The translations under genes and the position numbers were made by a program. From Thiocystis minor (GTDB lineage Bacteria; Pseudomonadota; Gammaproteobacteria; Chromatiales; Chromatiaceae), in assembly GCF_016653465.1 (NCBI RefSeq), contig NZ_NHSQ01000029.1:1-41298 (forward strand): a stretch of DNA of 41,298 bases, in the 5' to 3' direction. Shown here one piece after another: positions 524-41,298 of this stretch. The notes beneath the pieces are model-generated. The model worked only from the letters and a program-made list of their open reading frames with translations, was not told the origin of the DNA and made no database searches. The first letter of the stretch is position 1. Each line of letters begins with the position of its first letter.

Positions 524-2263
524 ATGGACGCCCACGCCGAGCCCCACTGTCCCCACTGCTTCAGCCAGACGAGCGCCACACCCTGCCCGACCTGTGGCTG
601 GCATCCTGGGCTCGACAACCCGCCCCCGGCGCTTGCGCTCGGCATCGTGCTCGACGGACGCTACCGCCTCGGGCGGGTACTCGGCCACGGCGGTTTCGGC
701 ATCACCTATCTGGCCTGGGACGAGAATCTGCAACTGCGCTTGGCGATCAAGGAATATCTGCCGCGCGACAGCGCCAGCCGCGCGCCCGATGGGGTGAGTC
801 TCGCCGTCTATTCCGGCCCGGCCGCCGAGCAGTTCGCCTACGGACTGGAGCGCTTTCTGGAAGAGGCCCGCGCGCTGGCGCGCTTCGATCAGCATCCCGG
901 CATCGTCACCGTCAAGAGCTTCTTTCGCGCCCACGGCACCGGCTACAGCGTGATGGATTACGTCGAAGGGCTGACGCTCAAGCAGTATCTGGAACAGCAA
1001 CCGGGCGGACGGCTGCCGTTCGACCAAGCCCTGCGCCTGCTGCTACCGGTGATGGACGCCCTGCGTGCCATGCACCGGGAGGGCTTGCTGCATCGCGACA
1101 TCGCCCCCGACAACATCTATGTCAGCCGCAGCGGGCGGATCAAGCTGCTCGACTTCGGCGCCGCGCGCTTCGCCGCCGGCGAACACAGCAAAAGCCTGTC
1201 GGTCATCCTCAAACCCGGCTATGCCCCGGAAGAGCAATATCGGACCAAAGGCAAGCAAGGCCCCTGGACCGATGTCTACAGCCTCGCCGCGACGCTCTAT
1301 CGCGCCATCACCGGCGTGCTGCCGCCCGAGGCGCTGGATCGGGTGGAACTGGATGAGTTGATTCCGCCGTCGCGGTTGGGAATTGCGATCGCTCCGGCGC
1401 AGGAGGCGGCGTTGCTCAAGGCGCTGGCGGTGCGGGCGGGGGATCGCTATCCGAGCGTGGCGACGTTGCAGGAGGCGTGGAAGAACGCGATTGCCTCAGT
1501 AGCGCAGCCGGAAGCTCCGCACGAGACGCCGAAGCCAGAGCCACAACGCGCCTCATCGGAGGAACTGCGGGAATCGCAATCCGCCATCAAGGAGCAAGAC
1601 CATCGTCATCAACGGCCCGCGCCTATCAAGCCTCACGCTCGTTCGGGGGGTGGATTGCTCGTGGTGGTGGTGATTGCGCTGGTGCTGTCGTTCGTTCTGT
1701 TTGTATTACTCGATTCGCCGATGCAATCGTCATCTTTGCCAACGCAGCCAGTATCGACAAGTGAGAATGTCGCGGAAGTCCCCCACACTCAATTGATCAA
1801 TGATCGTTACATCGATAACGGCGATGGCACCGTCACCGATACCACGACTGGCCTGCAATGGATGCGTTGCAGCCTGGGCCAGAACTGGAACGGCCGCACC
1901 TGCCTCGGGGAAGCAAAGATATTGATCTGGGATGAAGCGATGCGGCAGCCACAAGACTTTTCCTACGCAGGCCACAGGGATTGGCGGATGCCGACGAAGG
2001 ATGAGTTGCTGACCCTGGTGTATTGCTCCAGTGGCCGGCCCCAGACCTGGAACATGACTGGCGACTCGTGTGATGGTGAGTATGCGAGACCGACCATCGA
2101 TCAAACGGCTTTTCCCAATCCGCCAAGTTCGTATGTCTGGTCGGGTTCTCCCTACGCCGGCTATTCGAGCCACGCGTGGTACGTGTACTTTGGCTATGGG
2201 TACGCCCACTACTATGATCGGAGCTACAGCAGCCACGTCCGATTGGTGTGCGGCGGACAGTGA
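524..2263 (+). CDS. Membrane-anchored Ser/Thr kinase with C-terminal DUF1566 (Lcl_C) domain
   Basis: The predicted protein has 579 residues. Residues 8-26 form a CxxC...CxxC zinc ribbon (CPHC, CPTC). The kinase domain spans about 42-300, with a glycine loop (GHGGFGITY), catalytic Lys76 (AIKEYLP), the HRD motif at 190-192 and DFG at 210-212, all intact. A hydrophobic helix at about 374-397 is the likely membrane span, and a DUF1566/Lcl_C domain fills about 425-579 (DNGDGTVTDTTTGLQWM; HRDWRMPTKDEL). The kinase should be cytoplasmic and the C-terminal domain periplasmic or external, as for other PknB-like receptors; this is inferred. ATG 524 was chosen because GGAG lies 8-9 bases upstream and the zinc ribbon starts at once; the frame is open further upstream. 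The extreme C-terminus is very rich in Tyr/Ser/His (see the separate feature). Remnants of FHA and PP2C genes at 5628-6264 may be old partners. Confidence 0.9.
   Translation: MDAHAEPHCPHCFSQTSATPCPTCGWHPGLDNPPPALALGIVLDGRYRLGRVLGHGGFGITYLAWDENLQLRLAIKEYLPRDSASRAPDGVSLAVYSGPAAEQFAYGLERFLEEARALARFDQHPGIVTVKSFFRAHGTGYSVMDYVEGLTLKQYLEQQPGGRLPFDQALRLLLPVMDALRAMHREGLLHRDIAPDNIYVSRSGRIKLLDFGAARFAAGEHSKSLSVILKPGYAPEEQYRTKGKQGPWTDVYSLAATLYRAITGVLPPEALDRVELDELIPPSRLGIAIAPAQEAALLKALAVRAGDRYPSVATLQEAWKNAIASVAQPEAPHETPKPEPQRASSEELRESQSAIKEQDHRHQRPAPIKPHARSGGGLLVVVVIALVLSFVLFVLLDSPMQSSSLPTQPVSTSENVAEVPHTQLINDRYIDNGDGTVTDTTTGLQWMRCSLGQNWNGRTCLGEAKILIWDEAMRQPQDFSYAGHRDWRMPTKDELLTLVYCSSGRPQTWNMTGDSCDGEYARPTIDQTAFPNPPSSYVWSGSPYAGYSSHAWYVYFGYGYAHYYDRSYSSHVRLVCGGQ
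2153..2236 (+). other. Candidate diversified (DGR-type) variable region
   Basis: In these 28 codons of the DUF1566 domain, 18 are TAC/TAT, CAC, AGC, GAT or GGC, and none is AAC or AAT. Each of the 18 differs from an Asn codon (AAY) only at the A positions. In diversity-generating retroelements, adenines of a template repeat are randomised in the variable repeat, and DUF1566-like C-type-lectin folds ending in V-R-L-V-x-G-G are recurrent targets. No template repeat copy and no intact reverse transcriptase are visible in the window. An ordinary DUF1566 tail is also rich in aromatic and small polar residues, so this is a candidate only. Confidence 0.4.
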
Positions 2264-12092: not shown

Positions 12093-12494
12093 TTAGCGCA
12101 GCCCGCCCAGTCGCCATCGATACCAACGCCAAACGTACTGCCGGAGCTGGTTCTCGTCAGCTCCGCGCGCATGAAGCCGGCGCGCACGGTCGATCAATCG
12201 GTTGATGGATGGCCTGGTCGGCCGCCGCTTGCGGGAGGCTTGGAAGCGATACCCCAGAAAGTCGAACCCCCTGGCCGTGCGGCCGATGAAACGTTTGTCA
12301 GGATGAACCCTGACCTTCAAGGCTTCAAGCACTCGATACATCCGCCGGATGGCGACTCGGAGCGCCTGTCGCGTCGGTGCAAAGATGACGAAGTCATCCA
12401 TGAAGCGCCGAGAGCAAATCCCGCGCGGTCGTGCCAACGCCTCCATCGCCCGATCCAGCGGGGTGAGAGAGAGCGCACCCAGCAGCGGCGCGGA
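12093..12494 (-). pseudogene. 5'-truncated reverse transcriptase
   Basis: On the minus strand, from 12494 down, the frame reads SAPLLGALSLTPLDRAMEAL (resembling the S-P-L-L-G-A-L block before the active site). Next comes RRFMDDFVIFAPTRQALR with the polymerase motif F-M-D-D, then HPDKRFIGRTARGFDFLGYR, and finally a basic thumb-like tail ending WRWYRWRLGGLR. This is the C-terminal third of a bacterial reverse transcriptase. An in-frame TGA at 12497-12495 and loss of similarity beyond it show that the finger domain is gone. Group II maturases normally have Y-A-D-D, so this is a different, unclassified or retroelement-type RT. A 48-bp repeat shared with the kinase locus lies 58 bp upstream of it. 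Confidence 0.8.
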
Positions 12495-12552
12495 TCACGG
12501 ACGCGACGCTGACGCGTGGCAGCCGAGAGACGAATAATCCTTCACGGCCGCG

Positions 12553-12600
12553 ATGATTCGTCTGGGTTTTTCGCTCCATCAAACCCTACCGAGAATTGCT
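12553..12600. repeat. 48-bp repeat, copy 2
   Basis: Same orientation and about 43 of 48 bases identical to 2477-2524, including the first 23 bases and the last 10 (GAGAATTGCT). Here it lies upstream of the reverse transcriptase remnant and 86 bp before the binding-protein gene. It marks a boundary between accessory debris and intact genes. Confidence 0.8.
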
Positions 12601-12686
12601 GGGCGAGCGAGCGGTCGCGTGTCATTCCTTGTCGGATTCGGTTATCGTGAGTTCAAACAAACATGCATTCGGCGGGGTTCAGTCAG

Positions 12687-40262: not shown

Positions 40263-41018
40263 TTATTGCCGCTCGTCTGCAAAGGTATCGCAGGCGGCGA
40301 GCGTGCCCTCCTGAAGACCGCGCTTGAACCAACGCACCCGCTGCGCGGAGCTGCCGTGCGTGAAGCTGTCCGGGCGGACATAGCCGCGGCTCTGGCGCTG
40401 AAGGTGGTCGTCGCCGATGGCCGAGGCGGCGTTCAGGCCCTCCTCGATGTCGCCCTGTTCCAGGATATTGCGGGCCTGATGGGCGCGTTTCGCCCAGAGC
40501 CCGGCGAAACAGTCGGCCTGGAGTTCCAGTCGCACCGAAAGCGCATTGGCCTCGGTCTGACTTGCCCGCTGGCGCAGCGTGTCGACCTGATCGGAGATGC
40601 CGAGGAGATTCTGGACGTGATGGCCGATCTCGTGCGCGATGACGTAGGCCTGCGCGAAGTCGCCAGGGGCGCCCAGGCCGTCGCGCAGCTCGCGATAAAA
40701 GTCCAGATCGATATAGACCTTGCGATCGGCGGGGCAGTAGAAGGGCCCCATGGCGGCCTTGCCGAGTCCGCAGGCGGAGCGGGTCATACCCGTGTACATC
40801 ACCAGCTTGGGGTCGCTGTAGCGTTCGCCTCGCTCCCGGAAGATCGCGCTCCAGGTATCCTCGGTATCGGCGAGAATCACCGAGACGAAATCCGCCAGTT
40901 CGTCCTGCCCCGAGGCGCGTCGATTCGGGGTTTGAGACGGACCTGGCTCGAATGGTGACGGGCGGCTTTGCCCCATCGGCGCCTGCTGGGGGGGGGCAAC
41001 ACCCATACGCGCCAACAT
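40263..41018 (-). pseudogene. YpfJ-type neutral zinc metallopeptidase, 5'-truncated
   Basis: The frame matches the putative neutral zinc metallopeptidase family (YpfJ/KPN_02809 type): [60 protein letters not shown], then the zinc site [17 protein letters not shown] and [13 protein letters not shown] with the third ligand. The C-terminus is complete (FADERQ). The usual N-terminus, a basic start (R-x-S-x-N-V-E-D-R-R-G) and a Gly-rich membrane helix, is missing. Upstream of about 41018 the frame enters DNA belonging to a transposase gene on the other strand. The catalytic domain is whole, but membrane anchoring is lost, so I count it as a disrupted gene. Confidence 0.8.
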
Positions 41019-41076
41019 AGCCGGCAAGCCCTTGAAAATCAGTGGAGAGGCGCGATCTGTTGGGCATTTTGCCGCC

Positions 41077-41298
41077 ATGCTCCGCGCCCCCCAGCCCGTC
41101 GATCTCGCGTTTGAAGCGTTTCTGAAGGAATTGCCACCCGAGTACGCGACGATGGCGCGTGAGTTCAAGGCATTCGCCCGCCCGCGCAAGCTCAAGACGC
41201 CGGCGCAATTGCTGCAAGTGGTGATGCTGTCTTGTGGGTTGGATCAGGCACTGCGAACGACTGCCGGGAGCTTCACGCGGCTGGAGGAACGCATCACC
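41077..41298 (+). CDS. IS4-family transposase, N-terminal part (runs off window)
   Basis: From ATG 41077 an unbroken frame of 74 codons reaches the window end. It reads [20 protein letters not shown], then [20 protein letters not shown] and FTRLEERIT. This is the N-terminal pattern of IS4-type DDE transposases (P-P-E-Y, K-T-P-A-Q-L-L, C-G-L-D-Q-S-L-R, L-E-E-R-I-T). The catalytic residues would lie beyond the window. Its left end abuts the metalloprotease gene, which lost its 5' end there; the exact insertion-sequence end between about 41000 and 41076 could not be fixed. Confidence 0.75.

Follow-up and report, generated by a model that had tools for sequence, protein, structure and literature searches.

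A kinase–DUF1566 gene of Thiocystis minor as a probable past target of a diversity-generating retroelement

Introduction

Diversity-generating retroelements (DGRs) copy a template RNA with random errors at adenines, and the copy replaces a variable region (VR) in a target gene. In the targets, the VR forms the C-terminal end of a C-type-lectin-like or immunoglobulin-like domain; the Legionella protein LdtA is a DGR target with a DUF1566 domain. The reverse transcriptases (RTs) of DGRs are recognised by the motif (I/V/L)GxxxSQ.

The copying mechanism is also described in the paper on the purple sulfur bacterium Thiohalocapsa PB-PSB1 (PMC10907252). As in the locus considered here, the DGRs of PB-PSB1 are described there as acting on lectin-like C-terminal VRs of signalling proteins, and the legend to Figure 2 of that paper names a protein kinase domain among the targets. 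Several targets per genome, targets in trans and cassettes broken by transposons are likewise features that PB-PSB1 shares with the present case. DUF1566, however, is absent from the main text of that paper, and the link between cassette and target within the genome is, in the present case, an inferred one. The cyanobacterial Ser/Thr kinase–C-type lectin (CLec) proteins diversified by DGRs (PMC7517822) are alike in having an N-terminal kinase, a C-terminal lectin-like variable domain and many dispersed paralogs, but they come from a different phylum, and the main text of the paper does not contain the term DUF1566. Two roles of the variable domain were put forward for these proteins: the kinase may be activated when a ligand binds there, or substrates may be selected by the domain (PMC7517822). 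Among the Pfam domains of DGR targets, DUF1566 itself is named as the most frequent, and a CLec fold is ascribed to it (PMC6642488); the gene described below shares this domain, but the word ‘kinase’ is absent from the main text of that paper. As far as these texts go, publications already cover DUF1566 and kinase–lectin targets, targets in trans and cassettes broken by transposons (PMC6642488, PMC7517822, PMC10907252). The combination of DUF1566, kinase and DGR in this group was not found in the open-licence papers searched, and the gene would extend the DGR-diversified sensors of purple sulfur bacteria to kinase–DUF1566 receptors.

The analysed stretch of DNA (the window, 41,298 nucleotides) is contig C29 of the source genome, a 5.3 Mb assembly in 198 contigs with completeness given as 100%.

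The kinase–DUF1566 gene

The first-pass annotation had described a Ser/Thr kinase with a DUF1566 tail at 524–2263, and both the open reading frame and its domains were confirmed at these coordinates (Table 1). The chosen start is consistent with the N-terminus MDA..CPHC of the relatives; judging by the spacing of the CxxC pairs, this N-terminus may be zinc-ribbon-like. The five highest-scoring 19-aa Kyte–Doolittle windows of the protein all fall within residues 375–398 (maximum 3.5), which likely form a membrane span and would leave the C-terminal domain outside. The kinase motifs, membrane span and outer sensor domain are those of a receptor Ser/Thr kinase of predicted topology and presumed activity.

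Table 1. Features of the window, with strand and the basis of each assignment
Feature	Position	Strand	Basis or remark
Gene, 579-aa Ser/Thr kinase – membrane span – DUF1566 protein	524..2263	+	Pfam Pkinase 4.4e-28, Lcl_C 6.5e-29
Two CxxC pairs, residues 9–24	548..595	+	Sequence
Protein kinase domain	662..1330	+	Pfam; GHGGFG, AIKEY, HRDIAPDN, DFG and APEE motifs
Hydrophobic stretch, residues 375–398	1646..1717	+	Kyte–Doolittle
DUF1566 / Lcl_C domain	1826..2248	+	Pfam; low-confidence model
Candidate DGR variable region (alignment of 42 codons with the G003 template repeat)	2132..2257	+	Alignment
3′ end of the candidate variable region	2234..2257	+	Alignments; differs at non-A sites
C-terminal RT fragment, RT_UG4-related, not a DGR part	12093..12491	-	PADLOC best match RT_UG4, E 1.1e-34
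IS4-like element piece	40999..41297	+	Copy abuts truncated DGR-type RT on C45

The C-terminal Lcl_C/DUF1566 domain corresponds to the C-type-lectin-like target domain of a DGR, with the candidate VR at the C-terminus, the fold being weakly supported by the predicted structure (mean pLDDT 70, with low confidence in the tail, much of which is below 60). Fifty of the 106 matches of the model to PDB structures were inspected by title and were nearly all C-type-lectin-like, none of them being significant (best E 0.12). A search of PDB sequences with the protein gave nothing at E 0.01.

In a scan of genome contigs, which may omit the source genome, the nearest named relatives came from Thiocapsa imhoffii (full-length, 61–62%) and the Chromatiaceae MAG SJ691 (56%) and, for the kinase half, from an uncultured Thiocystis MAG (91% and 85%) and Allochromatium palmeri (80%), which very likely places the host among the purple sulfur bacteria of the family Chromatiaceae. 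According to the translations of loci L123–L126, relatives join the same kinase half to different C-terminal parts, and the protein therefore looks like a modular receptor. In T. imhoffii, loci L120 and L121 contain adjoining kinase–DUF1566 genes, two per contig, one of which has a long repeat-rich C-terminal extension.

Codon composition of the tail

The suggestion that the tail is a DGR target arose from its codons at 2153–2236. The claimed excess of Tyr, His, Ser, Asp and Gly codons is real, the count of such NNY codons being 19 of 28 rather than 18; the absence of Asn and the C-terminus V-R-L-V-C-G-G-Q were also read correctly. Altogether 22 of the 28 codons end in C or T. At the residue level, Y, H, S, D and G make up 21 of the 28 positions; no 28-residue stretch that starts within residues 1–510 has more than 12.

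Since every NNY codon reaches AAY by A-only changes, the pattern of A-only differences is no evidence when taken alone. A different 28-codon stretch of the same open reading frame contains 24 NNY codons, and the 15 columns that are Asn in the template are occupied by NNY in 15 of 15 cases in the window tail versus 12–14 of 15 in nine control DUF1566 tails. The controls, taken as not recently DGR-written (C61 and C110 of the source genome and the rest from genomes G003–G006), were hand-picked after the table had been seen and are related to each other. Compatibility with AAY was rejected as DGR evidence, being met by any NNY codon and nearly as well by conserved DUF1566 tails. What the case teaches is that an NNY-rich, Asn-free tail is insufficient by itself; variation at codon positions 1 and 2 with position 3 and non-A sites fixed, relative to the upstream domain, is a better discriminator.

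DGRs in related genomes

A congener (G003) has, on contig C144 (L074), an RT with the motif LPIGNLTSQ, a bAvd-like gene (39.8 bits versus a cut-off of 40), a template repeat (TR) and two DUF1566 VRs. The TR lies directly upstream of the RT, the Avd-like gene is upstream too, and the DUF1566 tails flank on either side. Over 120 bases, each of these tails departs from the TR at 18 positions, all of them template adenines. A second Chromatiaceae DGR is located in SJ691 (G008; L251, contig C353, 6900–9300) and comprises an Avd-like gene (bAvd E 5e-5, under the cut-off), an RT with a deleted N-terminal part and a TR/VR pair that differs at 15 A sites and 1 non-A site within 121 bases.

The G001 and G002 assemblies yielded 20 ungapped tails, the set being limited to those with VRLV in register. 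At 16 variable codons the third-position consensus is kept by 18–20 of the 20 tails, with entropy near zero, and positions 1 and 2 are highly variable. Neither a DGR-type RT nor a TR was found in the two assemblies, despite the 20 clearly templated tails. The TR/VR pairs of G003 and G008, together with the frozen third positions in G001 and G002, identify the DUF1566 tails of this group as DGR variable regions. The earlier assignment of DUF1566 as a DGR variable domain is thereby upheld within the genus, by the A-only TR/VR pairs of G003 and the third positions of G001 and G002.

With one DUF1566 tail as query, 29 DNA matches were obtained in G001 and 28 in G002 (E up to 1, a few of them short); loci such as L061, L098, L110 and L117 and also L092 and L105 encode several domains per protein, in frames of up to 2004 aa.

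For comparison with the G003 TR, tblastn matches were dropped if they were gapped, contained stops, had fewer than 37 columns or lacked a [VIA]R[LPF][VM] end, which retained 43 distinct tails, the G003 TR among them. The tail of one T. imhoffii kinase–DUF1566 protein (L120:2343–4004) mismatches the TR at 8 non-A and 22 A sites over 120 bases, with the third position changed at 1 of 15 columns; the other three ungapped tails of this species, two of them on separate kinase genes, have 6–7 third-position differences of 15. No TR was found in T. imhoffii: the match on contig C26 belongs to a further tail, around which a pattern search of 16 kb gave no RT motif.

Comparison of the window tail with templated tails

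Compared with the G003 TR, the window tail has 21 A and 25 non-A mismatches over 120 bases, and its differences are not confined to adenines as in an active DGR; the third position is changed at 4 of the 15 template-Asn columns. Compared with the G001/G002 consensus, the 19 variable codons show differences at 20 of the 38 sites of positions 1 and 2 and at 4 of the 19 third positions, the third positions of fixed codons differing at 8 of 19. The nine controls, hand-picked and mutually related, sum to 89 third-position differences of 171 at the variable codons (p 0.009 versus the window tail), with single tails ranging from 5 to 14 of 19.

Relative to the upstream part of the gene, differences at NNY third positions were lower in the window tail in 12 of 15 comparisons and synonymous differences in 10 of 15, with p<0.05 in four comparisons of each kind. 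The synonymous test was referred to ten pairs chosen by hand, seven templated and three not, and none of the seven templated pairs exceeded p 0.0145. In the window tail, the VRLVR end has Cys in place of its nearly invariant R (RLVC), and non-A differences separate the tail from each of the templated tails seen, its 3′ end included. This end occupies what we take to be the position of the homing signal in known DGRs. The sequence comparisons point to a moderate third-position signature in the window tail alongside ordinary drift, the other templating tests being weak. The present hypervariability proposed in the first-pass annotation is not supported, given the 25 non-A differences and the RLVC reading of the conserved RLVR.

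RT, TR and Avd in the source genome

Six DUF1566 domains were found in the source genome, and the RVT_1 profile gave nine places. The sole DGR-type RT among the nine is on contig C45 (L028:9573–10772) and has the motif LPIGNLNSQ; of the other eight, L007, L008, L009 and L012 have an SP motif and four are without a motif match. The C45 RT is 52% identical to the G003 RT in an alignment that begins at residue 109 (about L028:9567), counted along the translated stretch and not from the protein start. A 299-base copy of the element at the end of the window, 84.6% identical to it, ends at L028:9571 and abuts the RT. The IS4 label of this element is weak, part of it matching NCBIfam at E 7e-5, below the cut-off. 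The C45 RT is truncated N-terminally at the boundary of the IS4-like element and is not an intact DGR-type RT; the element occupies the side on which G003 has its TR and Avd-like gene.

The first-pass annotation had placed the TR and the RT elsewhere in the genome or considered them lost. The truncated C45 RT agrees with this, but the TR matching the tail was not found in the assembly by BLAST with four DNA queries (the window tail, the G003 TR, a G001 tail and the tail of contig C71), a search that could overlook a strongly diverged TR in an assembly in 198 pieces. Scanning C45:18000–49659 (L028, L029) with the window tail revealed no TR near the RT, and a self TR/VR scan of 16 loci, which included L028 and not L029, found no pair in L028. 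Weak self-matches appeared in seven of the 16 loci (1–3 non-A and 6–7 A differences per 60 bases); eight were inspected by eye and rejected as ordinary gene duplicates or repeats. The best Avd candidate, a bAvd-like match on C116 sharing 27% identity with the Avd-like protein of G003, was not accepted, its E of 9.9e-5 being below the cut-off.

The paralog on C71, a collagen-like protein, was compared with G003 C312. Mismatches at NNY third positions number 1 of 29 in the tail and 11 of 35 upstream, and synonymous differences 1 of 20 versus 22 of 44. The C71 tail looks recently templated on this signature, which implies that the source genome has had DGR-written tails. In another paralog, on C138, the templating signal is not clear (p 0.52 and 0.09).

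Probable origin of the tail

The kinase–DUF1566 gene is probably a past DGR target, now orphaned, whose diversification has most likely ceased in this genome. There is a good likelihood that the tail is a frozen, drifting variant of a formerly written VR and that the matching cassette, which appears inactivated, lies in the same genome. In such a scheme the outer C-type-lectin-like DUF1566 domain would serve as the ligand domain of a membrane receptor-like Ser/Thr kinase. An RT misreading adenines would have copied the template RNA, and the error-bearing copy would have replaced the last ~42 codons of the gene, changing template Asn codons at positions 1 and 2 and leaving third positions as they were. 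The window tail would once have been written in this way, and C45 may represent its former cassette, inactivated where the IS4-like element abuts an RT without its N-terminal part, with TR and Avd not found. After the loss of the cassette, the tail would have persisted as a frozen variant subject to drift. Ligand binding may regulate the kinase; by analogy with the two proposals made for the cyanobacterial proteins (PMC7517822), a ligand-activated kinase would be the most likely role of the domain.

Alternatively, the tail could be a DUF1566 ligand loop of the ordinary kind, in which Tyr, Ser, His, Asp and Gly abound because they suit the binding face, never or only remotely written by a DGR and shaped by normal mutation and selection. 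The control tails, which are likewise occupied by NNY at nearly all template-Asn columns, the weakness of the templating tests and the amount of non-A drift are in keeping with such an origin. It is nevertheless considered unlikely, since the third-position differences of the window tail lie below those of all nine controls, synonymous differences from the templated C246 tail are 7 of 27 in the tail versus 32 of 64 upstream (p 0.028), and the five residues fill three quarters of the 28 positions. A live DGR target, with intact RT, Avd and TR hidden in assembly gaps, on an element left unbinned or in different strains and acting in trans, would accord with the fragmented assembly, the apparently recent templating of the C71 tail and the many templated tails of G001 and G002 where no DGR-type RT was found. 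For PB-PSB1, action in trans has been reported, as have strain variants whose cassettes are intact (PMC10907252), which also accords with a live target. The window tail, however, differs at non-A sites from every templated tail seen, at the 3′ end too, and the completeness given for the genome is full; a live target is accordingly regarded as very improbable. The tail as such fits a VR written in the past and drifted since, or one written by a diverged TR missing from the assembly.

If the preferred reading of a past, now orphaned target is correct, targets seem here to have outlived their cassette, and the decay of a VR after loss of its mutator can therefore be studied. A broader proposal, quite unlikely at present, is that the DGRs of the genus are transient mutators: cassettes would arrive, write many DUF1566 tails in trans and be lost to insertion elements, leaving frozen receptor repertoires kept by ordinary selection. 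Such repertoires would comprise the dozens of tails in G001 and G002, with targets that include kinases both here and in Thiocapsa.

Other RT-related sequences

The truncated RT in the window and a repeat shared between its vicinity and that of the kinase gene had been mentioned alongside the proposed DGR target, and neither belongs to a DGR. The RT fragment was rejected as a DGR RT on its best PADLOC match (RT_UG4); to our knowledge, PADLOC contains no DGR RT model. In PHROGs, the fragment and the C45 RT fall into one broad RT family. The repeat (2460–2525 and 12536–12601) is 66 bp long, 82% identical and intergenic, and was rejected as a TR because it lies outside gene 524–2263. A longer RT on C35 (L012) of the source genome also has RT_UG4 as its best match.

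At its C-terminal end, the C45 DGR-type RT includes a MutS domain I (Pfam 5.5e-9). Accessory genes resembling MutS have been reported for DGRs; a fusion of RT and MutS domain I was not found in the literature searched. In 43 related RT loci of viral contigs, no match extended past residue 302 of the query (400 residues), which leaves the MutS_I end unmatched there. Pieces resembling this end are present at C45:24348–24503 and on contigs C291 and C448 of G003.
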